Assembly: GCF_949628265.1 (NCBI RefSeq)
Contig: NC_088787.1
Location: 12,638,501-12,702,500, forward strand
Source of the DNA: Cloeon dipterum
Taxonomy: Eukaryota > Arthropoda > Insecta > Ephemeroptera > Baetidae
Direction of reading: 5' to 3'
Length of the DNA stretch: 64,000 bases
Positions 6,101-44,000 of the stretch are shown piece by piece. Below the pieces are notes generated by a model. The model had not been told where the DNA came from. It made no database searches and worked only from the letters and a program-made list of their open reading frames with translations. The stretch's first letter is position 1. The number at the start of each line of letters is the position of its first letter. Both the position numbers and the translations under genes were made by a program.

Positions 6101-9100
6101 TAAAAAAAAAGTTGGAAATAATCAAATTCGGGCTGATTTAAATATCACATTTTGCCACATTTATTTGTCTTAGTTAAATTGCCCGCAGTAGAGGATTAAA
6201 TTTTGATCTAACTTGAGTGTAATGGTGCAGTGCTTCCACGGCGGCACGGTGGTCCAATTAGCGGCCGCTTTGGTGAGGGCAAGTGCATCCATGAGACCGA
6301 ATCCGAATCGACGATTGACGTGCAAGCCAGCGGCGTTCACTTTCCAACCCTCGTTGTACGCAAGAGGAGTCATGTCAGCTGTCCAGACCACCAGGTGCTG
6401 CACGTCACGCCACGTGAGCTTCGGGCTGCCAAATGTCGATGACAGTATTAAAATTAATGATTTCGATTAAAATAAGGCTAAAATTTCTTCTTAATTTTTA
6501 AGATGTAAATAACATGACAAATAAATCTCGAAATGGAATTAAAAAATTGTTCCGAAATTTTCTGGCTAGAATGATTAAATAATTAAACAATAAAAAACTC
6601 GTGCAAAGAAAACAATCCTACAAAATTTAATTATGTCTTTTTATTAATTTTTTCGTGACTTAGGAAACTGTTCTTTTTAACACATTAAAAGTATTTTGTA
6701 TCAATTGGGCAAGCCATAAATTTATGTAAAATACTGTCAATCGATTTTGCTGATTTAAAAAAAATACTTTTTTCAATAGATTTTTCGGTTACAATTAGAA
6801 TTTTTGTTGCAAAACGTTTGTTTTCTTTCTAAGAGAAATTTAAAGAAATTGAGAACATGTGTATTACTTCACTTCAAGAACGAGCGCGATGATTCCTGCT
6901 GCAATTGGCGCTGCTGCTGAAGTTCCGGTGTGTTTGACAGTGCACGAGTTGTGGAGATCGGTCGTGGCCTGCGGCAAATTTTGCTCAATTACGCGTCTCC
7001 CTCGATTTAACTTAGCGAGCGGGGCTGTGTTATTATTACAAAGTTGACGAGCATCTCAGAACAAAGAGCTCAAGCGCAGCTTGCAAATTACTCAAGTGAG
7101 AAGTGAGACGCATGGGTATAAGAGGTGTAAGAGGTGTGTGACTGTCTGCTAAAAGGAAAAATCATTTGGCAACTCGCAATGCATTTCAAAAATAAATTTT
7201 ACGAATTGGTTGGATGACAAAATTTAAAACTTCAGGATCTCATCTCCCCGTGGTGCAATTTCAAATTCAAGGTGTGATTAGGATTTTCCCGAATCAAACT
7301 GACACCAAATTTGTTGTCCAAGATCAAGGTCAAAGGTCTAATAATACATTAATTTTGGTTTATAATAAAAATTTGTGGAAATGAATCAAGAAAATGTGTT
7401 AAAAAGCCATGGACATAGGAGAACATGAGTAAAAATTTAAGAGTCGTTTTCTGTTTTGCTTTCGAGAAATTACGCATCATACACTGCAAGTCAGGGGTTA
7501 GAAAATGTCACTGCGCTGCAGTAAGCAAATCTCACCCCGCCGTATGTCACCTGGGGTGTCAAAGGTGAGTTTTTCGCACCGCGCAGCACTGACATGCGGC
7601 GCAGTGACATTTTCTCACCCCTGACTTGCAGTGTATCTTGTAACAACACGAATTTTTCTACTTTTCCGTGCTTTTCAAATATTCTCGATGCCAAATCTCG
7701 GGTTTTAACCATCGGAATTGCAAAAACTGCATACCGTTAGTAACGTTTCCACCTCCTCTGACCAGCTGAAGGGTTTAGGGGCTGCTTTACAAGTGCACGT
7801 GTTGAGGAATAATGCGAAAAATAGCGTGAAACCCGAAAAAACAGGGTTTTTTTGCAATGCAGTGTATACCAGATAATCCAGACGGCTTTGCAAATAATCC
7901 TTACTCTAAATTGATATTTTGATTTAGAAGTCAATACAAAAATTAAAAAATATTCAGTTGAATTTGGCAAAAATGAGAATATGCCAACGAAATAAGAGAC
8001 ACAAATTTACATTAGTTGGTTTCGACTGGGTCGTAATAATATGCTTGAAAAATCCCAACTACTAATTAGCGCTGTAATTTTTTTCACATAAATGCGTGTT
8101 TAAATTAGTGAGTAAAAAATTAGCTTTATACAATTATCATCGTAAACAAAATGACGCGTCTGTGAAATAATGACACAAACATGTTGAGCACGCAGCAGGA
8201 AAGGCCTTTGAAGTCGCTTGAAAGCGAATTATAATCAGGGCCTTTGAGAGATGATTATTCCAGAGGGTACATTTATAATAAAAAAGTCACTTGCGATCAT
8301 TTGGTCGGAGTAGGCGCCGCTCGAGTAGGTGGAGGCCAGGGTGGACGGGCAGAGCTCGCCGTACCACGGAAACTGGCCTTGCTCGGAGGCGCTGCCCACC
8401 GACAGGGTGAACACGCTCGAAGTGTAGCCGTCGCAACTGCAGTCGTCCTTGTTGCCGCCGTTGCCCGACGCCCAAACGTATATCACGCCTTTGCCTTTTC
8501 TACCCTGAAAACACAATTAAAAAATCGGCTAGATTTCAATAGGACCTCCCATTAAATACACATATCCTTTTTACATATTTCTCATTTGCTCTTTTTATCC
8601 CTGTCCGAGGACCGGGAAGGCCGCGCACTGTACTGAAACCCGGGTCCCAATAACACCGCGAACGGAAAACATGGGCGCACCAGGCCGCACAGGGACCCAG
8701 CCCACTCAAGGGCCACTTGCCTCCGCACCGAGGACTGCATTTTGAAACGATAGACATTCGTCCCGTGAAGCCAAATCACGCATGCTGGAAAGGTGCAAAG
8801 CAGCAAGTAGCGAGTCTAACCAGTCCGTTGAGCAATTTGAGCATTTCATCAACTGTGTCACTAAACTAACCACTTTTTGCCATCTCTGACATCGGGTAGC
8901 CAGTATTAGATCGCCGAACTGCTCAAATGCCTCCCATTGCATTGACACTCCTGAGAGTGCCTTAACGATGCGAGCCAACGGGCTGGTTTAAATTAATTTT
9001 ATGTAATTTTAATTTATGTCAGAGAAATTTGGCTCTTTCATTTAGCTTATCACCTTTTCCGGATAATCAAAAAATATATATACGTATTTTTTAAAATATA

Positions 9101-12100
9101 TTTTTCATTCAATTAACTTAATTGTCCCTGAGTGTTCCTGCTGTCCCTTACCTTCCTAACACCCCTCTCCAACGCTTCCTGAGCAAGACGTCCCGGTCCT
9201 TCAACGGTGACACCGTCATCAGTCGGTCCCCAAGAAGCACTGTAAATGTCCACTTTGTCCAGAGCGAAATTAAGCGCCTCTCCCTCGATACGGTCCATGG
9301 CACTCCCGCCTTGACCGTCCAGCATCCTGATTCCTGTCAAATTTTACACAACTTAGAATTAAGAAAAAAATCAATAAATAAAAAACTCTCCATTACCTCC
9401 GATCTTGGCGTTAAATGCAATTCCAACTCCGCACTTCTTATTATTGGCGACCATTGCGATCTCGCCAGCACACCGCGTCCCGTGGTTGTTTGGCGTTAAG
9501 CTCGAGTACCTGGGAGTGGGATCAGTGTCCCCATCGTTCAGGTCGTGGCTTATTTCAGGGTCCTGCGATTTTACAAATAAAAATAAATAAATTAAAAGGG
9601 TGAATTATGTATTTGCAACAAAATCTCTATTTTTCTTAATATGACTCACAATCAATAGTTTTCCAATTTTTCGAACTAATTACCTGGCCATGTAGCTACA
9701 TTTTCCAAGTTCCATTTGAATAATTTTTCCAAAATAAAAAAACACACTAAATTCATAGTGAATCGAATGAACACCAAATTTGAGATCATCAAATCAAAGG
9801 TCAGCAATGGTCATTTTTTAAAATTAAGGGTATTTTAAAAATCCAAAACGCTTCTAAAAAGCGGCCTCAGCGTACGTGTATACGTGATTGAAAATTTCAA
9901 GGTGATGTTGAGATGTTCGGCTTCGTTTTCGAGAAATTCAATTTTGAATTTTGAAAAACGAAATTTATCAATTTTAACAAAATTTGTGAGCGCCAAATCT
10001 TGGGTTCCAACTGTCTGAAATGCCAAAAGTGCACACCGTTCGACTTGGCTTTTCCTGGTGAGCTGAATGGTTTTTGAGGTGCTCAACCCTCACCCCTCCA
10101 ACCCTGTTGGCCATAATTTCATTCCCCCAGTCGTAATGTGAATAATTCTAACTGTCGCGATATTTTTGTTCTGTTATGTCTAGAATTTGAAAAGCTGGAG
10201 GGTATTTATGCAGGATGATTAAATAAATTTTGAATGGGTAAGACGCATTAGGCGTTTCAACAGCAAACGGTACAAAGGAAGATTCTTGATAAGTCCAGCC
10301 CAGCAATAAAACAAAATTAAGTAATCTAAGCTATAAACCATGCATTGCAATAAAAATGTTCTGATTAAAAAGTTTAAAAAATGTTATTTTTTAACATCAT
10401 AATTGAAAATCACTTTTTCCGGACACAGATTTCGGTTGTTTCACTCTAAATTGGTTTATAATTTTGCTAATTTTATCGAAATTAATTAACCGATGATTTA
10501 AGATAAATTAATGTCTTTCGAAGCCAATGCATAGTTAATAACTGTAACTGATTGACTAATAATTCAAAAATAGTCTATAAACGAGTTAAAATTAAAAAAA
10601 ACATTAAACATTTTGTTCTTGTGAGAAAAAATATAGTTTTCCATTAAGAGTGTGGCATAAAGATTCTTTTGCTCTGGAGTTTCAGAAATTATTGCCACGT
10701 ACCCATATTTTCAATCAGGCCATATACATTTCGTTTGGACACATAGATGCTTTTTGCTCTCGACGCGTGAGCTGCCCTTATTAAATTAATGCGCACGGAG
10801 TCGTGGAGAGCGGCAAAAAAACAGCAGGGGCTCTCGTGTTACACAAACAGCAGTCTCGCCCTCGTCTCATTTCTGATTCAATATGGACGGGCACGCAGGC
10901 AGGTGGCGTAAGGAGAGGCAAAGCTCGTGAATATTTCAGCACAGCGCATCTCGCGGAAATCCTCTTGGCGCACGCGAGCCTCGACTTCCTACTCTGCGCG
11001 CGCGAGATTTACGCACGGTAATTCGCGGCGAGCGCTTTTTGCAAATTATCGCGGCAAAGCCTTCTTTCTTTCTTCTTTTGAACACGCTGCCCCTTTTTCA
11101 GCCTTGAATTAAAATTTAAATATTTACGAGCTCGTGAGAGCCGTCTCCTGAGAATGACGACTATGCTAAAATGTGAGTGATCGCGCCCCAACAACAGGAG
11201 GTAAATAATTAATTGGGAATGATACGGATGCACAATGTTTTTTTAACGTGGGCTGTAGAAAATGTTTAAGTTCTTTTAGAAAAATGTACTTACAAATTGA
11301 AAAATAAAAATTTATGAATAGCTAAACATTCAAGAAAGGTACATTGTTCTGGCAGAGGCCTGAGCATCTCAATGGGAATTTGTTACTGAAACTTAATTTT
11401 TAAATTTTGATATTGACGTCTTGTAGAGCGTTAAATGTCAGATTAGAATCGTCAAAATATGAAATGGTGTTTTGCCTGATTTGAAAAGTAAAATAAAAAA
11501 CATAAAAAATTGGTGCTTTTTGGGTTTTAAAAAAATGTTTACATGCCCAAATCTCAGCTTCTAATGGTCATATTTTCAAAAACCATTAGACTTTTCTCAC
11601 CTTTCCCTGTAAAGCCAAAGTAGTCTAAGGGTGTCAACCCTTAAAACCCTTTTTTGCAACATAAAACATCTAAAATAAAAAAAAAACTTTCTTGTTTGCA
11701 CCTCACTGCGTGACGGAATTTAATGTTTATTATTACCCTGAAACTATTTCATACGAGTATAGCGGTATACAATTCTCGCAAATGTGACTCTTGGTAACTG
11801 AGATTTAGATATGACACAAATGTATTTTCATTATGCTGGTCTTCCGAAAGAAAACACGTTTTTCACCAAGTCTTAGCTTCTAGCCCTCAGGTTTGCGAAA
11901 ACTAAACACTGTTCGACTCATCATAATCTCACCTTGAGACCTTGATAGCTGAAATAGTCAAATGGTATATGTCAACCCCTTTTCAACCCCATGAAGGTTA
12001 ACCCCGGAGAGGTTAACAACAAAAAATTGTACATAATTATTTACTTTTTTAGGGTGCAAGAAGAGGTTATAAGGGTTAGCACCCTTTAACAACTTTGGCT

Positions 12101-15100
12101 ATCTAGGGGAGGTTGATGTGAGTTTAGCGGTGAGTGGTGTTTGAAAATCTGACGTTAAGAAGCTGAGATTTAGGCGTGTAAACATGGTTTTTTTAAGTCA
12201 AGAAAGCCCCAAGATTTTTCGAGATTTCATTTTTATAAATAATTCATGAAAAAACCCAATTCAAATTTTCATTTGTCTACATAGCCGACATAGCCTAAAA
12301 ATAGCAATATCGAAAATTTGATATTAGTGACCTTGGCCTTTGACCTCACACTTTGTCTCAATTTGAAATCAGTATCTGGTTTTACAAGTGTTAAAATCCT
12401 TGAAAGAGAAAAGATAACTATTAATAAGGTAAATGTCGCACATAATTTGGATAAAGGTCGGTGTGTTGGAACTCCAGGCCATCGTCAAGAACCACCACCC
12501 TGATGTTTCGGCCTGTGATGCCTTTCTGGTACACAGGAATCACCTTCAGGTCGAGTCGTGGCAAACCGGGCTCGGTCCTCGTGTCTTGCTGCAGCGAAAA
12601 TGCAGTCCATAAACACTGTATCATCGGGAAAAGGGCAAGGGAATAATCACCATGTACCACTGGTGCTCCCAAAGCTCGTCGTTGAAAAAGCCGACGGAGC
12701 CGAAGTAGTGGCGCCGGCTCTGGATTTTGTTGTCCAGCATACCGCGTTTATCTCTGCGCCGCCAAGCTTGCTGCTCTGCCCACTCGACCTGAAGCATATA
12801 AAGGGTTTATTCAGCGAAGCACCATTAAATGTCAATAATGTGGCTTGGAGGAGGAAAGGAAAGAAGATAAAAACACGCGTGGACCGGGGGATGGATTCTC
12901 GTGGTGTAGTGTAGGACTATTTTCGTTAAGTGGCTTACAAATCCGATTTTCTGCCAGCATAGCAATTTTATTTATGTCAGTTGATGGATACAGAATGGAG
13001 AAAGTTCATAATTTTTCACATTGGTTTGTGCTGCCTGAGAATGCAGCACAAACCAATTAATTTCAAAGTTCAAGATTATATTCTTTTAAGGAGACGACCT
13101 TAAGCAAATTTTGACCATAGAATAAAATAACAAGCCTGAGTTGGAAATAAGATTTTAGGAGTCGAAAACTGAAGGACAAGTATATGATTTGAATTTTAAA
13201 ATATTATCAATGAATATGATCAGGTGGACAACTCACCCTGAAGTCGTCGGAGAGTCGAAGGGTCAAGTTGGTGTTGCTGCGTTTTCCAATCGACGGTTGG
13301 CTTGAGTGGCTGAATATGTATGTATCATCGAAGCCAAGGACCTGAAATTATTTTCATTAAAAAATTACAAAAATTTAAAAAAAAACTTCGAAAACTATGT
13401 AGTAGCACCCTCTGAACCCTTCAGCTGATTATGAAATGCTTAGACGAGTCTAACAGTGTGCAGGTTTTGCAATTCTGATAGCTAGAACTCGAGATTTGGA
13501 GTTGAAAATTTAAAAAAAGTGGAAAATTTTAGTTTTTAAGTGGGATTTATCGAAAACTAAAAAGAACTCCAATCCGAAGTTTTCCCAAAAGTTCCAACAT
13601 GTCATGGGACAGCTTTAAAAATATTTTAAAAATTTAAATATCGTTAACTCCGTTTCCAAAATTTTAATTACAATCCATAATAAACAGTATAGTGATCTTT
13701 CACTTTTAACCTTGAGAAGTAGGTTAAAAGGGATGGAGTGTAAACACCCCCTATAAACCCTTCAGCTGGTCAGGGGAGGTTGAGACGAGTATAACGGTGG
13801 GTAGTTTTTAAAATAATGATAGTTAGAATCCGAGATAGGTAGTTTCAAATATTTGTACCACACGAAAAAGTTTAAAATCGTGTTTATTCGAGTTTTTAAG
13901 CATACAATTTCTCGGAAAAAAAATAAATAACACCACACTGAAATTTTACTTAAGTTCACTCATGTCATGGGACAACTTTTAAGCACATTTTAAAAATACC
14001 AAAATCCTAATATAATTTCCAAAATATAAATTATGAACAAAAATTAACAAAGTTAACCTTTAACCTTGATCTAGAACATAAAATTTGATGTCTGTTCGAT
14101 CCAAAGCACACCTTATTTTTAAAAATTTTCCACGGGGAGATGAGTTTTCAAAATTTCCATTGTTTTATTTTTCAAATAAATAATGTTTTTTGATTAACCG
14201 GTGTACACAATTTTTGTAGCTGCTCCAACTCAATTAAGTAAAGCTAAAATTCATTATCTTCTTGTGACGAGTCTTTAGTTTGTCATTCTAGAACTCAAGT
14301 GTCATTTCACAAACGACTTTTTTTTCATTTTACTTTCACGAACTCAGCTGTTCGTAACCCGAGCCTTTTTTATTAAATCCAGCACAGCCACTGTCGAGTT
14401 CGCACCTGGACGCGCTCTAAACGCCGCGATACCGCAGAGAAATATAAACGCGGCCCACGTGCGCCTGTTTGAGAGTGAATAGAGAGGCGAATTGTATAAG
14501 GTACCCACTATTCAATTTGAATGCGCACGTGTGTAGGCAGACAGGGCTCTCGACGGACGGCACGCTCGAGTGAGCAGCTATTGCAAAGGTGCCGGAAAGA
14601 AACAAAGGAGCATATGGTCGGCACGCGGCTGCCCGCCGCCCGTGGAGCGGAACAAAAGGGGTCGATCGCACCCTGTGTGGTGCAAGTTCCGCCCACGAGC
14701 AGAGCGCAGGGGACGCAAGGAGCAGGAGTTCAGCGCCGGCCAGGAGGTCCTTTCGCCACTGCATTCTGCATAGACCAGCCACCCCCGTAAACACCCACCC
14801 ACCCACCATCGACCCTTTCTCTCCACCACCGGCGGCTCGGCAAACAGAATATATCGCTCTCCTACCAACCACTTGTGGATAGAAAACGACACCGACTGCT
14901 TATCGCTCTCGCTGCTTTTTCGCTGTTTGCGCTTCCGCGGCGTTTCCTGCTGACGGAGCCACGCGGTTTATTCAAAGTGGCCACTTGCTATGTGGTATCA
15001 CTTGCAAACAGAAGGGTTGGTTCCCTGAAAATGTGGCATCGTAAAATTTTAAACTTCTTCGTGTCGTAATTACATGCAAACTAGTCGTAAACTTTATCAA

Positions 15101-18100
15101 TCTAGATAAAACCTTTGATGAAATTTAATATAATGTTATATATTATTCATTTATTATTGGACACCATCGGTGTACGACCTATGGATTAATTAAAATTTCG
15201 ATTCTTGTAACAGGATGCTTGGGAAATCGTTCAAGGTGTTTGACACAGTCAAGTAAATGTTACATGATAGTAAGCGAATAATCACAATAGATACAGTATT
15301 TACAATTTACAGTCACGTCCAGATGAAAGATTTATGAGAGCAGATGAGAAAGTGATAGCCATATGACAGGAGTGTCTTGTTAACATAGCCCAAATAAATT
15401 TAGTCATAGCGGTAATTACATCAAATTTTTGGTTGTCGTTTAATAGTCATATTGTTTAAAAACTTTTCCTATGCAGTTGTAAAAGGAATGGAATATTAGG
15501 ACTTCAGGTCATTTCCAAAAAATTATGTTTGAACTAATTCATATACGAATCTAGATTTCATTCGTTTGTCTACACAAAGAGTTTTTTTGAAGAATCCTAG
15601 ACTTATTCCAATTTATTGAGATCATTCAGCGAGAGGTGCTTCCAGATTGCTTCAATACTATAATATATGAAGCTACATGAGAAATGGCCAGATTAAAAAG
15701 CGTATTAGCAGTATACTAATGGAAAGATTTTGAAAGGTTTTTAATTTTAGAAGTAGCAAAGATAGAAGCTTTGTCTCTCTTATCAATATGATTGGTAAAA
15801 CAAGTTCCATAGACGTTTGAAAGGTAACACCAAGATAATTAACAGAAGTTAAAAATTAATAGTAAAATGTATATATCTTTTTAGATGTATGTGTTATTAA
15901 AAAGAAAAATCGATTCAATTCAATCCAGTTTTCTCCTTCCGACTTAAAAAATTATTTTCAGTTTTGTTTTCCATATTCATTTCAAATATTGGGATGATTC
16001 CCGTAATTGTAATAGGTGGCAGTGTAAAGGCCGGTGAAGCGCACCTTTGCTGCACCTTCACCCACACAGCGCACAATCAGACTCGCACCGAAGCAGTCAC
16101 ACCAAAATGTTTTGTCTCTCTGACCTGAATCGAGAGTCTGTGCGAGATTAACCCAAACTTAGTTTGTATTAAATGACTGAACCCAAAACGGGGTAAGAAA
16201 CAATTGTTGTTGATTTTTCGTTAGTTAATGTGAAAGTCTGAATTGCTAATTTATTATTGTGATAAATGTATAAATAATTGTGATTTTTGTCTGTTAATTA
16301 TAGTTCAACTTTCTACGATCCTTGCCACAAGTCCAAATAATATGATGAGCAATTAGGACGTAAAGCTGCCCTTGTATTAATTACGGCTCCTCGATATCCC
16401 ACACCTCATTGATTGTTGATTGTTGAGGTTGTTGCTTTTTGACCAACAATCAAACCGAGGTAATATATAGAAGTAAATATCAGGAAACAATACGAACACT
16501 GCGAACTCCTACACAACAAAGCACAACTCTCCAGCCCAGAACGCCAAGATGAAAACCACAACCACCCTGACGATGCTGCTGCTCTGCACCCTCTACGAGA
16601 TCGACGCCCAACGGATGCCCGACGGCCAGGACACTAGGATCAACGCCCGATGGACCCCCAAGGACCGAAGAAACGGTGAGTCTCTGACCTCGGACACTAA
16701 TAGACGCCTGCCAAACCCCCAACGCCGCACTTGGCGCAATTCCCCACCAGCAAAAACCTACGACTCCCACCCCTGGAACAACCTCCGAAAACTCTACGAA
16801 AAGGTCGAACTCCCCCTGCCCCCGACCAACTACCTAAAAACTCATAATCAGACCCAACAAGGCCGGCAGCGACGGCCCCAAAACGAGACAAACCGCGGAT
16901 GCCCATGCCACCTCCCGTGCAGGGAAATAAACCAACCCCCACGGCCCCTAAAAAATCCCCAACGCACCCAAAAGCGACAGACGATGACAATCACTCGCCC
17001 AAAGACCTGGAACAATACCCGACAGCCCCAAAAAATCGGCAAAGGCCCCGAGCCCCCAATAAACAACCGCGGCCACCAGCCCCAAACAGGCCGGCAACGA
17101 AACCAGCCCTCACAAAAACCGATCACGCGCCCAAAGACCTGGAAGCCAAAATGTCGCCACCAACCTCAGGGCACGACCAAGCCCCTAAAGCCACAGCCCC
17201 TCACCAAAAATCCCGAATCCAAACTGGAACTCCGAAAACTCCCCACCACCGAGCTTCCCCAAACCCAACAACAAGCACCCCCGAAAACCCACCGATGCCG
17301 CTGCTACCTGAGGAAGGCTCGCCTCCAAAAGTTACTGGCCAAGATTTTCCACACTGAACTTTAACACTGAATAAACACTTCTTCTTCAAATGAAAAAAAA
17401 ATATTTCAATCAGCCCACTCCCCAGAAAAAGAAAAAGAAATATAAAAGAAAATAAAAATTACGGTTTGGCAATAACATCAATACATCGTTAAAAAATTAA
17501 TTTGTGTTCATCTCTCCGATCAAAGAAGTTTTTATTAATAAACTGCAGACAATGCTAATCAATTGCAGAGTAATTTTCGTAATTTTCATTGTTCTGAAAG
17601 GAATTATTGGGTGAACATTATGAAAACAATATGCCACATACATTGTTGCTGGTTGTTGCATTGCCGTCAACAATCAAACCGCGCGAGGTTGTATGTATGT
17701 ATGTATATTGAGGTTAAAATCAGGAAACAATTCAAACACTGCCAACTCCAACACAACAACGCACAACTCTCCAGCCCAGAGCAAAGATGAAAACCACAAC
17801 CACCCTGACGATGCTGCTGCTCTGCACCCTCTACGAAATCGACGCCCGATGGACCCCCGAGGACCGAAGAAGCGGTGAGTATCTGACCTCGGACACTAGA
17901 CTTTTCCAAACCTTTACAAACCCCCGACGCCGCACCCCACCAGCAAAGACCTACAACTCTCACCCCTGGAACAACCCCCGAAAACTGTACGAAAATATCG
18001 AATTCCCCCTGCCCCCTACCAACTATACCTAAGAACTCATAATCAGACCCAACAAGGCCGGCAGCAACGGCCCCAAGCCGAGACAAACCTCGCCGCCTCC

Positions 18101-20097
18101 CTTGCAGGGAAATAAACCAACCCCCACGGCCCCTAAACAATCCCCGACGCACCCAAAAGCGACACGCGATACAATCACTCGCCCAAAGACCTGGAACAAT
18201 ACCCGACAGTCCCAAAGAATCCGCAAACGTCCCCTGCCCCAAACAAACCCCTGCCCCCAGCCACAAACCCTGAACAACCCCCAGCGCCGGCGACAAAAAC
18301 TAATCACGCGCCCAAAGACCTAGAAGCCCCGAGGTGTGCACTAACCTCACGGGGCGACCAAGCCCCCACAGCCCCTCACCGAAAAGCCCGAAACCACACC
18401 CAAAAGGCCCCTGCGAACCCTCCCCCTCTCCACCACCGAGACTCTCCAAACCCAACAACCAGCACCCCCAACAACACCCCGACGCCGCCAAAACCTGAGG
18501 AAGCCTCGCCTCCACAACCTGACCAGGAAAAACCGAACTGAACTTTAACCCTAAATAAACACTTCTTCTTGAACTACAAAAAAATGCTTTCCTTTAGCAC
18601 ACTCCCCAGAAAAATACCAAAAATAATAAAAGAAAAATTGTGGTTTGGCACAAATTAAATTGGTATATACATACATGAAAAAAACAAAAGTTGTTCATCT
18701 CCTATTAAATAATTTTCATTTAAAAAAATGCAAATTTTTATTGTTTTGAAAGGGAATTATTGGGTTATAATATGTATTATGCAAAATCAATGCCTTATTC
18801 ATTGTTGGTGTTAAGCAGTGGTGTTGCACTGTCGCCAACAATCAATCCGACGTGAAAATCGGAAGCAATTCAAACAGAGCGATTGTTACCCACCTTCAAT
18901 GAACATGGTTGTTGTTTGCGTAATGTTATCGCACAGTTCTCCTCTATGTAACAAATGGAATAAAAATACGTCGATTCCACAGAATTTCCTCAACTTATAG
19001 CAAAATATCATTATCTTCTCTTGGGAGCGAGAGTGGCGGCACGTGTTGCACGGTAAAAACGCAAAAGCCGAACTGAATCTATTTCTGTCTTTTGCGCTGC
19101 TCTCTGTGGTTAGGCTTTCCGCTCATTATGCATGTGGCTCCGGTTGCCTAACTTGCGCCGTCAACCCCCTGTGTGTGTATGTGACGAGTGAGCGCGTGCA
19201 ACACACACTCTGCCACGCCACCCACCCTATTATCCATATTCAGCGCCAGCTCATGTCAGCAAATAAAATATTTAGCAGGTTGGCCCCGTCGCTTTTGCAG
19301 CGAAAAGCAAACACGCCGCCCACAACGGCCAGAGAGGAAACCAGTTTTCTGCATTAAACACAACATTAAATTATGTAGTTATTTCTGTATGATTCTCGTG
19401 ATTTCATTTAGCGAAATGTTTACGACTTTCGTTGAAATTGCTGCTTTTATAAACTAACATGGGTTTACGTGTGGTTTGAAAAGCGAAAGGCTCCGAATTT
19501 TGCCTCCGTTTAATATTAATTAGTTAAGACGTTAAAATTCTGTTCCTTTCCAGAGACTGGAGCAAAACTACAAAAACGAGACCGTGGTGAAAAGTTGGAG
19601 GTGGAGGAGAATGACAAATTATTGCCATGTCCAAAAGGCTTAATGTGGGTGAGGCGGCACGCATTAATTTTCTCGCCGCCCCCCGTCGCGGGGAGCAGGG
19701 AATCTCTGCACCTGCGTAATTTGCTTGATTGATGTTCATCAGGGGCAAACATTTTAGCGTATTTGCCGCCTGTTATCGCAGACCAACTGCCTCTCGGCGT
19801 TTATCTCGCTGCTCGCACACGCAGCACACGCGTAATCACACACCTCTTTCTCGGTGCCGCATGCATTCAATTAGGCCCGCCACTCCATTCATGACGGCAT
19901 TAATTAATATAGTGTGAGCAGTAATGATTGCGGAAACTTGCCGATCATCTGAAGAGTTTGCCCGATATTTTTGTGTGCTGGGCCGAAGCCATCCATCAAC
20001 ACGAACCTGCTTCTTGTCAACTGGCAAACTTTAGAAGGGTGCCTTTTGAAAACGATTTGCCTATAGAAGTTTGCAAATCAGGTTTCTGTCTACTCAA

Positions 20098-20183
<86 letters not shown>

Positions 20184-23100
20184 AATTTTTTTTTAGAATC
20201 TTATTTATTTGAAAAAACATTACAAGTCCAGCCAATTCTTGTTGGGTAATTTAAAATCTCTGAAATGGATTGTCTTTTTTCTTTTTTCTGTCGAAAATAA
20301 TTTTTCGCCTCCAGAATTCAATGAAAATCAGCAGAAGACTTTTGTTTTAAATTATTTTAAACAATTTAAAAACTTCCCCAAAAAAAATTTAGCGAAAGTT
20401 ATTTGTAATTTTCAACGGTCAGAATTGACAAATATTTGGTTTAAAGCAATGCTTCCCACCTTGAGAATCTAAAGAAAATTGGCAGCCTATTTTGCTTTCA
20501 TTTTTTTAATTGATTTCAAAGTGAAATTTATCCTCAAAGTCAAAATTCTAACTTGCTAAATTAGTTTAGCCATCAAGAAATGTTTTCCCCTATCATAAAT
20601 CAACGAAAATTGGCTTGGGGTTTTTTAATAATTTTAAAATGATTTTCAAGTCAAAAATATCCCTAACAAAAAATGTGATTAATTCACCAGTAAGCCCTTA
20701 GTGTTTGAAAGCTGCCAACAGGTGGCACCAGCGTAAACTTGTGATTTTAATAAGGCACTTGCGCTGCGATTTCAGACACAATCCTGCCACTGTGCACTCT
20801 TCACATGATATATTTTCTTTTAACGTGCTTAAAACCAAAATCGGTTTAGCCAATAAAATCGTAAAAACCACTATTTTATGAATAAAAACTCTTTTCCGAC
20901 GTTTCTGCGGTGGATGGTCGGACTGATTTTTGTTTTCAGCACGTCTAAAGAAATAATTCTAGAAGCAGAATGCTCAGCAGCAGGACGAAGCCTGAAATCA
21001 CAGCGCAGAGCTCTCTAAAATCGAAAGAAACCGCACTGGCACCATCTATTGGTCGATTCAAACACTTGGGTTTACGCAGCGGTGAAATTCACCAGACAAT
21101 TAGAAATAGTCGAAATTGACCAAATTTGGTTTAAATAAAATTGGCTGATCGGTTCGTTGTGAATTTCTATTAATGAAAGCAAAAATTTTCAAAATAAAAA
21201 AAAAATATTGGGCAAACACGTGAAAATAATTTGGATATGATGCGACCCACCCTCAAATTTTTAACAAATAAACATAAAAACTCTTTATTTTGTTAAATTT
21301 GATTTGTTAATGTTTTAGAATGGCAACATTCTAAACGGCCTACAAAAAGAAAAAAACTCTTAATCAAGTTTACCGCTATAAATAATGGCGATGTGTATCA
21401 ACTGTCAAAATTGGAGGTAAGAATAACTCGCTTCTCACCACGAATCGTTATTAGTTTTTTTCTTTAAAAAATTAAAAGTTAAAAAATTGGAAATTTATTT
21501 TGTCAAAAACTATGAAAATAATTTTGTCCCAATTTTATAAAGAGTTAAGAAGGCCATTTATTTCATTAATGACCGATAAGCAAATAAATCGAGTTTTTCA
21601 AGAATGCTCTGAGCATGGAAGATCTGTACTCAGAAATAGTCTGTGTTGTTGTTATTATTACTTTCCTGTTGAAAAATTTGGTGCGTGCTAATGAAGTGCG
21701 TTGGCTGGCTTGTTTGTGTTCAAGCAGCTGAAAATAAATTTCCGGCTGCATTACCGGCAGCGAGTAACATATTGGCGGAGACATGTGACACCGGGGATTA
21801 AAAGCCGCTTCTGTGTCCCACTCATTAAATCTGATCCGATCACACTACGGTTCACGTCACACACACATTTTCACCCACACAACCCAATCGCCTCCCTCTC
21901 TACGCTCGCACACTCACGGCCCTGAACGAAATAAAATTTTTGCCTCGTGTTGACTTAATTAGGGATGTGTTAGCTAATTAGTGCATATGTTATCGCAGAC
22001 ACATAAAACTCTAAACAAAAACATCCAAACCTTATTTTAGCCCTCTAACAACCACAATGTGCGACGTTAACCTGTTTGGTAGGACACGTGCACATCGAAT
22101 GAAACTGCTGGCCCCGTTTCGAAGACGTTCGTGCGGTAGCGGGAAATTTGCGCATCGCTCAACAAACACAGGAGTTTTAATTGTTGCCCTTTTCTTGCGA
22201 CAAGGATATTCGCGTTTGGTTATTGAGCTATGCGCAATTTTTCCGCTACCACGAAAACTGTTTTCAAATTCTAAAAGCTACCGCCTGCGTGGAACGATTT
22301 CCCCATCGCGTAAAAGAATTCTTAAAAGAACAGTTCCTCAAGAAATATTGAAGCAAAGTTTCATCTCTCTTTTATCAATTATGTTCAAATACATTTTTTG
22401 CATTTATTTGTCTGGATATGGCAATGTATGGGGCAAAATAGGCCTACAGAACCATAATATAGATCATTTGAAACTAGTGATGGGTGTGCAAATGATCTAT
22501 TGCGTTCAAAATAAAAGATAAATCTAAAAAAGCAGAGTTCAGCATTTATCAGTAGAGTGGAGGAGATTTCCCCGCTGATAATGATAAGGAGTATCAAAAA
22601 ATATTTACAAGGGGAGCGTACCTTCTAATCTAAAATTTATGGTGTTTTTCGCAACCATTCGATAGTGTGTGTGATAAAAGATGACAATTTGCCTGAAGAA
22701 TGATTCCCGTTTTATTTTTAACAAATTTCAAACCATGTTTTTGGATTTCAACAAATATTTTTTTGTATCTGCTCAGCGAAGACAAATCAAATAATACTTT
22801 TGCAAAAGTTCGTGATTTTTCCAAAATTTTTCAACTGAAAATCTCGTTCACAAATGTACTAGTATTCAAAATTTAGTTTTTGTACTGTACAAAAGAATTT
22901 TTATGTTTTTGTCGAAACGATATGTTATTCGATTTGTACTTTTTTAATCGCTGGAGCGTTCTCTGCGATGTCTTGAAATAATTTCTTAGAATTTTTGAAA
23001 ATGATTAACAATGGCCTAGCTCCATTTAGACATTTGAAAGACTTTTTAAAAATTAATTAGTTTTAGTATTTTAATAATTTAAACCAACAAAAACCGCAAA

Positions 23101-28600: not shown

Positions 28601-31600
28601 CGTAAGTTGACAGCCTTCACCACGACCTTCATCAGGGGATATATTTTTAGTTTTGAATATTTCAATGAACAAGAGTAGAAAAACAATAATTAAAGAGAGC
28701 TGGATTTTTCTATAACCCTCTGGAAGCCATCAGAAGACGCCCTAATATTCCTAAAATCTCGATCGTGAGTGCCTGTAATGTGCTCTAAGGCCAAATTGCA
28801 CATTTTCTGAATTATCTCAACTTTGCCATTCCAAAGATCGCACCAATATAGAGCCCGTCAGGCGTCGGTTAAGTGGTTACCGATCGCTCGAGGGCTACCC
28901 TGACGCCAGGGTTCAATTTCTTACCTGTTATGATGGTCGTTAATGACCTGAGGGCATGTTTTTAGGGTCAAGATAAACCAATCGTGCAATGATGATTTTC
29001 TCAAAATACCCTTGAATTAAAAAATACCCGTTTACCTACTTTTGACCCTCAGTGTCTCATAAATGCAAGTTTCACCATCCTGAAAGGTTCTCGGCATGTT
29101 ACATATACTTAGGGTAACATTTCATTCCATAGTAAGAAAATAACTAAACAGGCCATTTTTGAGATATTCAAAACGTAATAATAAACTCAAATTTTAAACG
29201 TATTAATAAATGTTTTCGAACATAAAAGTTATTGACCGTTTAAAAAGGCATCTTTTGGCACAAAATTTGATGTTCCATCCTCATTAGAATTAGAGATAAT
29301 CTCAATTTTTTAGCTTCCAGGAAAATGGCCAAACATTTTTCCATTAAACTTGGTTATTTCGAAACCCTGAGATCATACCAAAAAATGAAAATGGTGCGCT
29401 TAACAAAAAGTTATCAATTTTATCGCAGAAACACTCTTTAGCGGAAATTTTTCTTTTGATTCATACCATGTTAGCGTGTGCCTGTTTGGGTTGTGACTCG
29501 CTACTGTACAGGTACATAAACTTGTTGATGGCAGATGACGCCAGACGGTCACGCGCCTCCAGGCTTTGAACTAGGAAGACTTGCCTGGACGCAACAGACT
29601 CGTTTTCAGGGTAGACTTCGTGCCTGAAGCGGACCTATATTTCGTTTTAAATTAGCTTTAAAATGATTTCATCGTTGGAGATGTTACTTTGTTGAATTGG
29701 AATTCCATTAAGACGTTGTGGTCTCGGCCGGGTCCCCCACGTTCTTGCCAGTCTGTGCGAGCTAGATTTGGCTTTGGCTTCGTGGTATTGAACATCACCT
29801 CGCTTGGAGATGATTTCGAGAAGCTTATTGAGGTTGATACTCCAGAACTTCTGATTGGCGAACTTGTAGCTCTGAATGTTTGATTGGTTTTTCATGTATT
29901 CCTTATTAATATTTTAAAATTTTAAAAGTAAAAGAAAATCTTTTATTTCTGGTTGTAAAATCTTAGAACCAATTCTCTTTCATCTAGAGATCAATTTTCC
30001 TTTTAATTTTAAATTATACTATCTTCCCAGTCTTTATTCCCTAGCGAGTTGAATTGGAGTTTCAAAATTTACTTACGTAGAGGTTTCTCCTTTCACGCGT
30101 ACAGACTTCTTCTCGGTAGGTTGGAAGTCGCAGCCGCCGTACAAGTGCCAGACTAAAGATAAGTCACAAATTGTATAGCGGAGTTCAGGACTGGGGAAAT
30201 TCTTTGGTGTCTCCAGCAGGTCCATTCTACGCAGGGGTACTCCGAAATGGTTCTCCACTATTTTAATCGGACCGACGCAGAGCTTCCTGATTTCCGGTTC
30301 GCCGTGCTGAGGCTGAAGATTCGCATTGTGAAAAGCAGGAACAAAAATTTCAAGGGACAACTGACTTACAATGATTCCAGTGCCTGGGTCTTCTCCTAAA
30401 ATGCAGAAATCTTCTTCGTCACTAGGCAGTCGGCTGTATTCCACGTTATATTCCTCAGTCGCTCCAAAATTGTCCCAAGCTGCATTTTCTGATTTCGCTT
30501 CATCCTCCTTCAACTGGAGCTCGTCAGCGTGATTGTCCTGCATCGCCTCCTCCATCAGGGTGTTCACTTGGTCCGCTTGCGTCGACAGAGAGGTTTGAGA
30601 GCCTCTGTCACTCTAAAAATCCAAGTTAACCAATCATATCACCTAGTGTCTCAAGCAATCCTACCTGAAGTGGAGTAGTGGATCTACTTGACGCGTTCGT
30701 GGGCTGAATTAGATCGCCGTCACTGGCAAAATACGAAAGCACCTCAGCCAGGGCCCGACACGAGTCAGCGCAGGTCCGCAAATGAACCGATTTGCTTGAG
30801 GCCCTCAAATCAACCTTTACAAAATTTTAAATTACTAGTTTCTAGCTGAAAAACATTTATTTGCAGATAGACGCTGTTCTCGCTACAAAGAATATATGTT
30901 TAGTTTTTTAAACAAATCATCAGCTCAAAAATATTTTTTTAAGTATTAAAATAGATTAAAAATTATTTTGGGACGATAACATTGCCTGATATTTATAATT
31001 TATTTTCTTAAAATTTTATCTGTAATCTTTACTGAGGTTATATAGTAATTTTAAGCGAAGAAAAAATAAATAAATAAAAAAGCAGACGAAGACGTTTCTG
31101 TTGACTCCATTTTTTATCAGGAAGAATATGACTTCAACAGAAAATTTATATAAAAATCTTAGGCTTTCATATTGGTTTTTAATTTCAAGCACAAGATAAA
31201 CAGCACTGTCCAAATCATGCATTTTACGCACCAGCTGGCAGAACGAAATGATAAAACTTTAGACCTTCAATTGAGAAATATTTTACCTTTGGTGCTCGTG
31301 AGTCATCGCTGAGTCGCAGTGACAACTCAAAACAGCCGAGAGTAAGGACTGACACATAGTCCTTGGCCAATTCTGGAATTCTCGTTGATGGCACCTTGTC
31401 GCTGATGAAGAGAGACCCTTTTTCGGCCACAAATCTCAACGACGAAGACCTCGTTTTGGCAGCCAGGTTGCTCGACACAGAGAAGCTGTCCATCGTGACC
31501 ATGCAACGCATGGGCAAGTAAAGTGGCCGGTAGTCGACGGCGCAGTTCCACAGGTGCAGGTGCAGCTCTGTGATGACCCTGGGAGGCAGGTAGCCAGGCA

Positions 31601-34600
31601 CAGGGTAGTCGATTACGTCCAGCATGTCAATCATTTGGGACAACCAGCTCTGGGGGCCCGGCACAACCCTGTGGTGCAAGGTGGCGCCACGAACACCAGT
31701 GGCTACTTTGATCATCTAAAAATTAAGTAGAAATGAAAATTAATCATGATTTGAACTGACTACCAGGTCACTTATCATTTAGCTCCATTTTTCAATGAAA
31801 AAAAATAGAAAATGTTCAAATTTACTTAATTTTTTCTTACTTAAAAACAGCATGACAAATAGGATATTTAACTTGATTTTTGAGTACGTTTTGTTTCTTG
31901 CTCTTTTATAAACTATTAAAAACTTAAGAGAGCTTGTAACTAACCCTTGGTGGAAATTTATAATGTTTCCCAGAACGTTAAAAATGACCCACCGGTCGAT
32001 TTTGATTTGTCTTGTTAAAACAATATTTACATACAAAAATAAAGCAAAAACTGTATTTTTAAAAAGTTTTTAAAAAGGTCATTTTCTTAAAATATAAAAA
32101 ATCTCTTAAATCGGAAAGTTTCCAAAACTGTCTCATCAGGGCATTCAGTGGAGATTTCGCAAAATGGTAAATTCACGTTTAATATCTAAGGTAGGGAATA
32201 ATTGTTTCATGTTTGGTACCTTCAGGGCACCAGGCTGCTTCATGTGAATTTTGATAGCGACGCAAAGCATGTCGAGACTTTCTCCGCCACATCCGACCTT
32301 TTCTAGCGGCTTCATATTCACTCCAGGAACGGTTTGAATGATTGTTGGTAAAAGAGAGGCGCATCCAATATCCACCGAAACTAAGCCTGCATGAACACTT
32401 TTTAGAGGAAGCAACACATAGAAATAAAATATCAAACCGGCATGATGCAGGGCAGCTTGGTTTGCCTGGATACAGATGTAGCTCAGGTCGGGGTCGCCTC
32501 GGCACTCGGACGCTACAAAAAGGGAGCCCTCGCCAATCACCAGCTTCAGCTCACCTTTTTGATTTGGTATTACGCAATTTGCTGCATCCTGAGAGGAATT
32601 TCTTATTGGAGTGGTGAAATTTGGTTGCGAACTTACTCTGGCAGGTGCACTCAATGAGATGGTTCCTTCGTTGATTTTAAGGCTGATTGTGACCTTGCTC
32701 TGGCCGAGAGGCACTCTCGGTTTTTTCAGATTTAGTGCCCTCTGCCGGTTCTCGTGCACAGAACAGTAATAATCTTCTGAATCTGAAGATTCTGAATCAG
32801 GCTCTGGATAACAAAATGTAAGTTAGCAATAATCTTAACTGTTTTAAAAATGAGATTTTCTTCTGTTGAAATAGTTAATAAAAGGTAAATAAATTCTACA
32901 GTTCAACTTCAAGGAATTGGAACATAATACTTTAGAAATTAAATCAAATTATTTTTCATTTTCCACTTTTAAAGAAATACAAATTTAAATTAAAGGTCGA
33001 TTTAAAATTATTACCCAAGTGAAGTCCTGATTTGCACATGCTGAACGCTGTCATGTAGATGGACGTATTGGACATCAAATCAGGTGAGGGCGCAGCATTT
33101 GACGGTCGTGATGGCTCCCATAGCATGAAGTCGGTTGTGATTCTGCAAAAGTCAATAAGTTTAAAGTAAAATTTCATGAACATTCTCTAAATTCACCTGT
33201 TGTAGAGCAGTTCATAAAAGTGTTTTGACGGAATTGTAAGAGCTGCATTTGGCAGAATCAAATCTATGTGAAGCTTGCTCTGTTTTGTCGCGTACTCTAT
33301 GAAGTCGTTGATTTCCTTTTTGTCTCCTGGTTTCACCACTTCGTAAGTTTCATCAACTATGAAAAAAAAACATTTTCAATTTTTCAAATCGTAATAATAA
33401 AAACCAACGGACCATCAACATGGCGTGTGTCACTTTCATAAACGACTTTGACTGAGCTGAATGGGCTGGGATCCTTTCTCCGGGTTTGTTTTTCAAATGA
33501 AAATGAGCCCAACGGATCCATACTCTCCTCAGAGGATTCGTCATTGGTCTGATTTATTTCAGAGAGTTGGCTGTTGGTTGGCGTTACGATAACTACCAGT
33601 CTGATCAACCCGAAGCCCCTGCCATTGTTTGGCAGCGACTGTGCCGCTTCTTCCTTATCACAAACCAAAACAGGTATATCGTTTTCAGCAGTTCCATCCT
33701 GAGACAAAAGGCATTATTTTTTAGTCTAAATATTTGTAACAAATTATTATTGAAATACCTGGAATATGACTTGCAGGTCAGTGCAAAGAACTTCGTATTT
33801 CGAAATCGGATCTCGGCTGTTGATGGTCGATTTAAATTCAGCATCGTTGAGGCAGATCAGCAGCCACTCGTCCCGAACGTTTCGCTGCCACCAAGGCACT
33901 CTCTCCATGTCACTTAACGGACGCAAATCAGGACACGGAAATCTGCGGAACGTATTAATTAATTAGGTGAAAAATGGTAGAGTATTTTGAAAAATTTTCA
34001 GGTTTATTTAATTCTTGTTAAAAAAAATTAGCAATATTATATCATGATTCCGTTCCTGGATATGAAAATGACTTGTTCGGGACACTGAAAATATTTTTAA
34101 TTTGTTTCAATAAAAATAACAATTTACATCTGAGGACACCTTTTCGGATATTAAAAATTGTACAAAATAAAATCAAGAGGGACTTTAAAATGTTTTGGTG
34201 CGTTTCTTTCAAGCTTCTCAAGTAGGACACCATCAGATTTTCAAAGAAATTTTGTTAAAACAATGTCAGCCCTGTAAAACATACCTTAATTTGATCGACA
34301 CTTCCTTGGGGAACTTGATACTGATGTCGAGTCTGCTATCTGGAGAAATACCGGACTGAACAGCCTCATAGACTTTGATTGGGTTGTTTAAAGGCGACTG
34401 CCGCTTCTTGCTGTAGTGGCAAATCGTGTGCATAGGGTTTGTAATGCTTGAAATTCTATCAACCAGACTGAGGTCGACTTCAATTACACAGGACTGCAGT
34501 TCAAATCTGTTGAGAATGGAGCCTTAGATTTAATTCCTACAAGTTTTAAAATGCACATACTTGATCTCTGTTCTTGGGCAGGAAGTTCCTCTGTTGGTTT

Positions 34601-41092: not shown

Positions 41093-44000
41093 TTACATCA
41101 GGACAGACACCTTTCCATTGGCATTTCCGACTGCGACAGCAGGCATGCTGGGATGGAAGGCAAAGACAACCTCACTGGCGCGCGTGGATCTTATGTCGCA
41201 CTTGTGGCTCAGGCTGGTCAGAGGTTCAACCGCGTGGCCTACCTGAAACAGATCCAACTTTTCCAGCGAGCCAGTGAGAAAGACATCTTCTCTCTGAGGG
41301 TGCCAAATAGCGACTTTTCTGTCACTGTTGCTTGAGGGATATGTCAGATGCAGTTTGGGCCTGTCCAGATCACGAGTGTCGACGATATTTAAAAACTTGT
41401 TGGTGGTCACCAGAGCCAGGTTGCCAGTCACAGGCGAGAAGAAACAAGACCTGCCACGCTCGTTAGAAAACCTTCCAAGAGACACTGATGACAGCTCCTC
41501 TTTTGTTTGTCGCACATCCCAAATGGCCAGCTTCGTGCTCATGGACAGCGTGGCAAAGTACATGTCAACAGGGTGCGCGCTGGCACAGATGACTTCATCT
41601 TTGCACCTGAAAAGGTAAATATTACTGAGATACTGATGACAAACTTTAGTCATAAGTTTAGAATTTTAATTCCATAGTAAAAAATTGATTTTGATTTTTT
41701 CAAAAATATAAATAATGCAAGAGAATTTTTGTCAACTTGAACAAATTACAGGAAATTTAATCAGCTTTCAGATTTTTTTTTTAAGTTTTTACATCTTAAA
41801 TTAACCATTAAAAACTAAAAAACAAGCAATATTTTTTATTTCTCATTTTTCCCATCAAAAATCAAGGTTGCAAAAAACCCCGCGTTTAGAAAAATGAAGT
41901 GCAGTGTGATAAGTCGTTCTTTGTTCAATTTTTACCAGTTTCTTGCGGCGAAGTTCACCCTTATTGTTGGTTTTCAATATAATTTTCTAATAACTTAGCT
42001 CGACTTAAAATTTATTCAGAGAAAATGATGCAGAAAATAGCAATTTTAAAGAAAATTTCTGCACATTTCAGGAAATTAAGACCACTCTGACTGCAAATTT
42101 TAGACTTTCAAAGGGGAAAAATAGAAAAGATTCATTTCTTGCGCAAGAAATAGGAAAAAAGTGAATGGTAAACCCAGTGGTGAGCAAATGCAACCGTCAA
42201 CCCACAAATCGATGTGCCTCATTTAACAGTGTCTACAACCTGGATTTCTATAAAATTGACCAAATTTGTTTAGTGTGAATTGATTTTTAAATTTTAAGCA
42301 TTTTAGTTAACTCTCAAAATTCACAAAATTAAAATACAACCACTGTGCGTGATTCATATTAGGAAAGGCTACAAAAATTCAACAATTTTCGCCAGAAACT
42401 GAGGAAGTTAAAAATATTTTCCACCAAACCAACAAACCTGTAGGTAGTAAACCGAGTAGACTCTTGCCGAAGATCAACAATGGCGACGCCTCTACATCCC
42501 TGGCTGAGCAGAAAGACCTTTGGCTTCACCTGGGAATGCCAGCTCTTCCCGCGCATCCCACTCTCGCAGACAAGCGAGAAGCTCTGCTTGTTCAGGTCGC
42601 TCTCGTAGAAAGAGCCGTTAGAGCTGCTCGAGTACATGAGATGATGGTTGCTGGCGTCGAAAGAGATGCAATCTACGGAGCTAGAGTGAAAACCGAATAG
42701 CATCGAAGTTGCACTCTCGTCCTCCGAGGCAAGCTTCCACAGGCTGACCTTTCCCGAATGACTGCCGGCTGCAACCACAATGCTCGACGTCATGGGGTTG
42801 AATGCCAAAGACGTTATTATTTGAGACACAAACTGCAAAAAGACATGAGTTTATTTATTAAAATAAGCACAGAGATAGGAGCAATAAAATAAAGAAATTC
42901 AGAGATGGCGTGATTTATGGATTAAAACATAAAAATGTGAAATCAAATAAATTTAATATAATTTGATTTTATATTCTTACAGAGGAGTGATAGTGCGCTT
43001 CCCCGAAAAACCCCTTTTATAATTCTATTGAATAGATCATGACGACCTCGTAGAAGATATTGATTGACAGAAAATTCTCGAGAAAATTTCCACCTAAGTT
43101 TCCAATCTTTAGTTATTAACTGAATTTCAGCATATCCTCAAAAATAGGCTTTTAAATCCCATAACAAAACATGGTCTTGCAATGAAATGTTTTGAGAATA
43201 TCAGCAAAAATCGAAGCGCGCCGATTTTGGCTTACTTCATAAAAATATATTATGCTGATGGTTAACACGGAGTGACGATCGCAGAGTTTCAGTTCTCGGC
43301 CAGCATGTCGTTTCCAGTTGAATATACAAAACTTTTTAATTAATAATCTCGCTAATCTCTAAATTATATGAAAAACAGGACGAAGATCCGCGAGATTTAA
43401 GGTGGCTATACCAGGACCAGCTTATTACAATTAGCCAAATTTTTAGCCCGACGGAGGCGGCTGGCCATTTTCATCTGTGGCTGGCGGCTGATAATATTTT
43501 AAACGTTTTGATATTGCTTTTTACTCCTGACAACCATTTCTCTCCTGCAATTTTAAATTTTTGACCATTTTTCACTGAGGGCTGACAGCTGCCCACGGGA
43601 CCCAAAATTTGCTGGCTTGCACAGACCTCTAATTTAAATATGTTTTACCTTTGAAGAATTCTGCTCAGTGAAGGTGAGAGAGCCAATCTTCTTCTGAAAG
43701 TTCTCCAAAGATTCCATATTATTTTGTTTTGGAATCAATTCCATTTCCCCCTGGTCCTCCGCAGCTATTTCAGCCCTCTCCTCAGATTCGACGGGGGTTG
43801 GAAACAAGTTCAGAAGGATCTTCCGAGCATCACGCACCTTCAAACTACAATTTGCATCCTCCAAGCTCAACACTTGAGTAGAGGGGCTGATGCAAGAGAA
43901 GTCCTCCTTTTCTTTTTCAGTCGTGTCAAAATTAATACCACCTCTGCGCGTTTCCGGCGTGAAAACGTAAGTCACAGGCTGCTGGCTTTTGATACGGTCA

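Follow-up and report, generated by a model that had tools for sequence, protein, structure and literature searches.

Probable single-exon gene for a putatively secreted, strongly basic proline-rich protein and its damaged duplicate in Cloeon dipterum

Introduction

Genes placed within other genes are common in flies. About 6% of Drosophila melanogaster genes are described as nested, often on the strand opposite to the host, as exemplified by 2mit in tim2 (PMC3786989, in the part dealing with nested genes). Several genes for secreted proteins show the same arrangement. According to the sections of two papers devoted to them, Sgs4 and the “ng” genes of Drosophila are intronless, encode a signal peptide and lie inside an intron of dunce, an unrelated gene that hosts Sgs4 together with four of the ng genes; ng copies are numerous, Sgs4 contains internal repeats and occurs in one species subgroup only, and both types of genes are described there as having Thr-rich repeats or composition (PMC6352337, PMC10835880). 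Another type of secreted product is represented by the precursors of drosocin/Buletin and apidaecin, from which, as stated in the relevant part of the source, several peptides are released by furin cleavage (PMC9233930).

Here we analyse a 64,000-nucleotide stretch of the Cloeon dipterum genome (contig NC_088787.1, positions 12,638,501 to 12,702,500), hereafter the window, in which a preliminary description had placed two tandem genes with competing reading frames and an intron that breaks the frame. Most likely, nothing unusual is present in this stretch apart from a damaged duplicate: the gene beside it would be a conventional one, with a single exon and a very basic, Pro-rich, secreted product.

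Results

Organization of the locus

The features considered below are as follows (window coordinates).

16416..16548, plus strand: core promoter of copy 1 with a short leader, assigned by match to family promoters
16444-16456, plus strand: CAACAATCAAACC in the promoter of copy 1
about 16463-16469, plus strand: TATA-like ATATATA in the promoter of copy 1
16549..17364, plus strand: coding sequence of copy 1, single exon, 271 aa, intact, from ATG to TAA (17362-17364)
16676..16922, plus strand: putative intron of copy 1, 247 nt, GT..AG, 58% GC
17370..17375, plus strand: AATAAA poly(A) signal of copy 1, right behind the stop codon
17590..17786, plus strand: promoter-like repeat of copy 2, which is also the repeat 3' of copy 1
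17787..18032, plus strand: open part of copy 2, 81 aa, with the stop at 18030 behind a 2-bp insertion
18033..18559, plus strand: decayed remainder of the copy 2 frame, with frame 0 interrupted by inner stops at 18321 and 18342
18554-18559, plus strand: AATAAA of copy 2
18733..18930, plus strand: third promoter-like repeat without a coding part, a relic or a conserved downstream element

Two diverged copies were indeed found on the plus strand, and both have a signal-peptide-like start, as judged by eye. In copy 1 the frame opened by this start (frame 0) runs through 271 codons without a break, spanning the putative intron and the region in which a second frame spells “PKDLE”. Since this frame stays open up to 17364, there is no conflict of frames: the “PKDLE” DNA reads RPKTW in frame 0, and the donor-like GGTGAGT is a part of Gly-Glu-Ser codons. 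The signal-peptide-like start is followed by an Arg/Pro/Thr/Gln-rich chain with only one module, and the whole protein has a net charge of +38. Judging from the sequence, 16549-17364 is very probably a compact, intronless, TATA-driven protein gene. The suggestion that the 5' frame alone makes up the gene was therefore right in kind, while the size expected for it was not: copy 1 encodes 271 aa, and 81 aa remain only in the frameshifted copy 2.

A dispersed gene family with a common promoter

The genome that contains the window (190 Mb, 10 contigs) was searched for relatives of copy 1 at both the DNA and the protein level, and such relatives were located on contigs C2, C4 and C5. Five of them are further intact single-exon frames, three on C4 (C4a, 396 aa; C4b, 400 aa; C4c, 518 aa) and two on C5 (C5a and C5b, 250 aa each, seven substitutions apart), and two short or decayed relatives (C2x and C2y) lie on C2 at about 21.51 Mb. 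Since searches of this type score best candidates only, the number of members is a minimum. The number of modules in the intact relatives varies from one to three, each module being about 118 residues long; in the C4 genes two or three module copies of 117-119 residues each are spaced by 351-357 bases. Other copies occupy different contigs or are megabases distant. One can assume with little doubt that copy 1 belongs to a dispersed family of which it is one of six intact members, differing in the number of modules and sharing a promoter.

The absence of a known family, as anticipated in the preliminary description, was borne out in the sense that no Pfam family matched at E<=10; no match was found among PDB sequences at the same threshold either, and the literature search yielded no paper on such a family or on four peptide strings taken from it. 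Viral relatives were rejected, as a scan of viral contigs gave seven stretches with the pattern and none was confirmed. A high-copy mobile element was rejected as well: the promoter repeat had 11 matches among best candidates, every one at a family locus.

About 120 bases 5' of ATG are alignable among the copies and contain CAACAATCAAACC-like and TATATA-like stretches followed by a short leader; in copy 2 the TATA part is altered. The pattern CAACAATCAAACC-NAGGT-ATATA gave nine matches, some of them overlapping, at six places, all of which are family loci, while the control gave none. The hexamers AACAAT/ATTGTT, which we take to resemble SOX-type sites, occur 4-6 times per 170 bp in all seven promoters, against 0.12-0.19 after mononucleotide shuffling. 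At the other end, AATAAA lies close behind the stop codon in the six intact genes.

A second promoter-like repeat was observed 3' of every one of the six intact genes. Its end has a weak inverted similarity to the 5' repeat, as judged by eye. This downstream element may be a relic of a tandem array or a conserved downstream element.

Splice signals and the second reading frame

Both signals on which the idea of an intron was based are present: donor-like GGTGAGT and acceptor-like CAG/G sites were found at 16676/16922 in copy 1 and at 17875/18107 in copy 2. The Pro-rich alternative frame with PKDLE was also confirmed. They could be reconciled in a model with a 5' frame that is short or undergoes splicing and a separate product made from the PKDLE frame. 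In its favour, CAG/G is retained in the codon alignment of all six intact genes and GGTGAGT in three of them, and the PKDLE frame of copy 1 is long. However, frame 0 is unbroken across the whole region in six of six intact genes and is the frame that the intact set keeps open; competing frames and a frame-breaking intron were not supported. The donor GT, present in copies 1 and 2, C5a, C5b, C2x and C2y, is changed to AT (GATGAGT) in C4a, C4b and C4c, and is thus missing from half of the intact set.

Nor do the conceivable products resemble each other. Splicing would shorten all seven copies tested to 31-53 aa with differing ends: 44 aa in copy 1, 31 aa in copy 2, 53 aa in the two C5 genes and 51 aa in the three C4 genes if the missing donor is disregarded, so that even the intact genes would yield unlike peptides of 44-53 aa. 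The mini-peptides predicted earlier do have the lengths of 44 and 31 aa, and the former does end in Gly-Lys, but with the acceptor kept in six of six genes, the donor in three of six and no product in common, splicing itself is unlikely. A spliced mini-peptide was therefore rejected, and 16676..16922 is most likely translated rather than removed.

The length of the second frame was estimated against synonymous shuffles that preserve the frame-0 protein and its codon use. From stop to stop the PKDLE frame of copy 1 has 169 codons, and 58 of 1000 shuffles reached at least this length (P 0.058), so that the length attributed to a separate PKDLE product stays within what composition and frame-0 coding give. 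In C4a, C4b, C4c and C5b the longest open stretch of the same frame covers 83-102 codons and is below the shuffle mean in all four. Conservation of the second frame beyond chance was thus found neither in the shuffles of copy 1 nor in these four relatives, and dual coding was rejected. The model with a spliced or short 5' frame and a separate PKDLE product is extremely improbable; the second frame and the splice signals look like by-products of A/C-rich sequence and of codons that happen to spell GGTGAGT and CAGG.

Retention of the reading frame

Long open frames may also arise in DNA that codes for nothing, and a non-coding repeat with frames being artefacts of composition has to be considered. 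The A/C-rich DNA of the family has few T and hence few stops in any frame, substitutions are spread about evenly over the three codon positions, and most pairs give dN/dS values near 1 whichever frame is read, as should be expected for such a repeat. According to permutation estimates, which cover 7 of 15 pairs of intact genes, frame-0 dN/dS is 0.76-1.20 in six pairs and 0.57 in C4b/C4c, and the values for frames 1 and 2 are 0.82-1.45. Synonymous changes are in excess in C4b/C4c (28 versus 18.9 expected, P 0.009), and for C4b/C5b the probability of so many synonymous changes is 0.045. A ratio near 1 in every frame had been named in the preliminary description as an outcome that would refute its proposal; for most of the seven pairs this is what was found, and frame 0 is retained nonetheless.

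Evidence against a non-coding repeat came from the frame itself. The identical frame is open in six of six intact genes, with no stops, whereas frame 1 contains 10-16 and frame 2 contains 5-14 of them. For five of the six genes, dinucleotide shuffling leaves frame 0 without any stop in only 0-3 of 1000 cases. The 15 pairs of intact genes, which are not independent of each other, were also aligned locally at the DNA level; in the best alignments codon phase is kept at 10070 of 10136 aligned bases (99%), as compared to 74.6% (2839 of 3808) when the decayed copy 2 is aligned in the same way with the six intact genes. Gap lengths in coding and flanking DNA also differ: with the same reservation as to independence, 51 of 77 gaps in the coding sequence are divisible by three in local alignments, the corresponding count for the 3' flank being 30 of 166, and global alignments with other settings gave 115 of 166 for the coding sequence. 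The avoidance of stops is weak in each single comparison: with the observed substitutions placed at random the probability of a stop-free frame 0 was 0.0095-0.2035 in ten comparisons, and 0.89 and 0.72 in two comparisons of C5a with C5b.

Divergence of flanking DNA gives a mixed picture. In the recent pairs the coding sequence differs less than the 3' flank (5.6% versus 13.3% in C4b/C4c and 0.9% versus 8.9% in C5a/C5b), which may reflect constraint or gene conversion, while between copy 1 and the others the coding sequence, with a divergence of 17.7-19.6%, is not better preserved than the 3' flank (14.1-18.5%). In 12 of 15 pairs divergence in the 5' flank is below that in the coding sequence, the exceptions being copy 1/C4b, copy 1/C4c and C5a/C5b.

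Because of this frame retention we read frame 0 as coding despite dN/dS near 1 and consider a non-coding repeat very unlikely. The values of 0.76-1.20 imply that amino-acid constraint is weak, and in our reading the frame would be under selection while the amino-acid sequence is loosely held.

The duplicate and its surroundings

Copy 2 lacks 39 bases near its start and, relative to copy 1, contains the 2-bp insertion that leads to the early stop. Protein alignment reveals three inner stops, and two more frame-0 stops (18546 and 18552) are present at the 3' end. With high confidence the copy at 17787 can be regarded as a frameshifted duplicate of copy 1.

Both copies had been assigned to an intron of a convertase gene on the opposite strand. 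Exons resembling an S8 proprotein convertase do lie on the minus strand at 6173-12530 (about 6.2-12.5 kb), where the Pfam S8 family matches 8238-8516 above and 6173-6466 below the cut-off and the remaining exons were delineated from motifs by eye. The S8 prodomain family has six matches in the genome and none inside the window, where no prodomain exon was found; location of the copies in a convertase intron is therefore no more than plausible.

The region 16001-20000 is characterized by strong strand asymmetry, with GC skew of -0.26 and AT skew of +0.26 at 16-18 kb, which is in line with the A/C-rich coding strand. A segment of 62 bp at 20124-20185 is 95% identical to a site about 1.3 kb downstream of C2x on the opposite strand and is perhaps a small dispersed repeat. 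Neighbouring open reading frames at 31227-31715 (minus), 42362-42850 (minus), 47191-47475 (plus) and 55609-56070 (minus) resemble ATG2, WD40, trypsin and cytochrome P450, respectively; by the curated cut-offs of Pfam, the first three resemblances are below and cytochrome P450 is above.

Discussion

The six intact genes encode proteins with net charges from +38 to +84, containing 10-13% Thr, 11-18% Arg and 13-17% Pro; after residue 20, Pro, Arg, Lys, Thr, Asn and Gln account for 65-72% of the chain. Behind its start the product is hydrophilic, Arg/Pro/Thr/Gln-rich and strongly basic, and it is probably disordered. As to its secretion, tissue and role, we infer that one tissue or stage would secrete the protein in bulk, with the AACAAT/ATTGTT-rich promoter as a driver, and that it would act via charge, disorder and repeats rather than via an exact sequence. 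It would serve as a coating, an adhesive or a mucosal protein, in the manner of the glue and “ng” proteins of Drosophila. A tissue-restricted, bulk-secreted, disordered polycationic repeat protein of glue-like or mucosal type, gene model included, has in our estimate about an even chance of being the correct description.

The same gene structure can be combined with another product, namely a precursor from which several proline-rich antimicrobial peptides would be released by cleavage at dibasic sites, like those of the apidaecin or drosocin type. The signal-peptide-like start, the Arg and Pro contents, the strong positive charge and the repeated modules, one to three in number, are all consistent with it. 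Moreover, G-K/R-R, a possible signal of amidation and cleavage, is present at seven of the eight PLPP-like sites that were counted in C4a, C4b and C4c, though copy 1 and both C5 genes are devoid of it. Furin-type R-X-K/R-R sites are not clearly above the composition control: each C5 gene has 3, against shuffled expectations of 1.95 (C5a) and 1.93 (C5b), but copy 1 is near expectation (1 versus 0.76), and the C4 genes do not exceed it (0 versus 2.92 in C4a, 3 versus 3.04 in C4b and 3 versus 4.03 in C4c). Also against this interpretation, the strict NF-kappa-B consensus does not occur within 1 kb upstream of any of the six intact genes; since 0.00-0.02 strict matches are expected per 170 bp by chance, this absence speaks only mildly against an immune gene and tells little about the presence of weaker sites. 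The lack of matches among Pfam families and PDB sequences points the same way. An antimicrobial precursor is the main rival of our reading, though a rather doubtful one.

It is also conceivable, with the gene structure unchanged, that the family belongs to proteins of the male reproductive tract (seminal). Rapid divergence and turnover of copies would suit seminal proteins, and the core HPWNNPRK may be reminiscent of a sex-peptide motif; a literature search with such terms found nothing, which is weak evidence either way. We consider a seminal role unlikely.

One can also take a broader view and tentatively, at rather less than even chances, see here a family not described before, made up of hypercationic Arg/Pro module proteins that are secreted. 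It would have been copied to no fewer than six places, three of these places with two copies, on three contigs, each copy with its own compact AACAAT/ATTGTT-rich promoter. Frame, charge and modules would be maintained by selection, with the sequence left free to drift, and the members may form a novel class of effectors, either multi-peptide antimicrobial or reproductive.

Dual coding in this locus, which would have been a surprising property, finds no support in the evidence. An apparent dual-frame mini-peptide gene is thus removed, and a defined small gene family takes its place. If expressed, it would offer a secreted protein in which frame and charge persist while the sequence drifts, and a useful case for how repeat genes spread and decay.

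Comparison with the described systems, made within the limits of the cited sections, reveals partial likeness in each case. In contrast to nested genes of the 2mit type, nesting here is putative, and the other copies are on other contigs or megabases off. With apidaecin and drosocin/Buletin (PMC9233930) the family shares the character of secreted, Pro-rich or multi-product precursors, but its furin-type sites are not clearly above composition, strict kappa-B sites are lacking and G-K/R-R is found in some members only. Sgs4 and the ng genes, compared here by their descriptions, are Thr-rich, whereas this family is Arg/Pro/Gln-rich with modules of about 118 residues; as repeats or composition dominated by Thr were not found in the six intact genes, the family was not filed with the glue and ng genes. 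What it has in common with them is a signal-peptide-like start, recognized by eye, a compact intronless gene and internal repeats in the large members.
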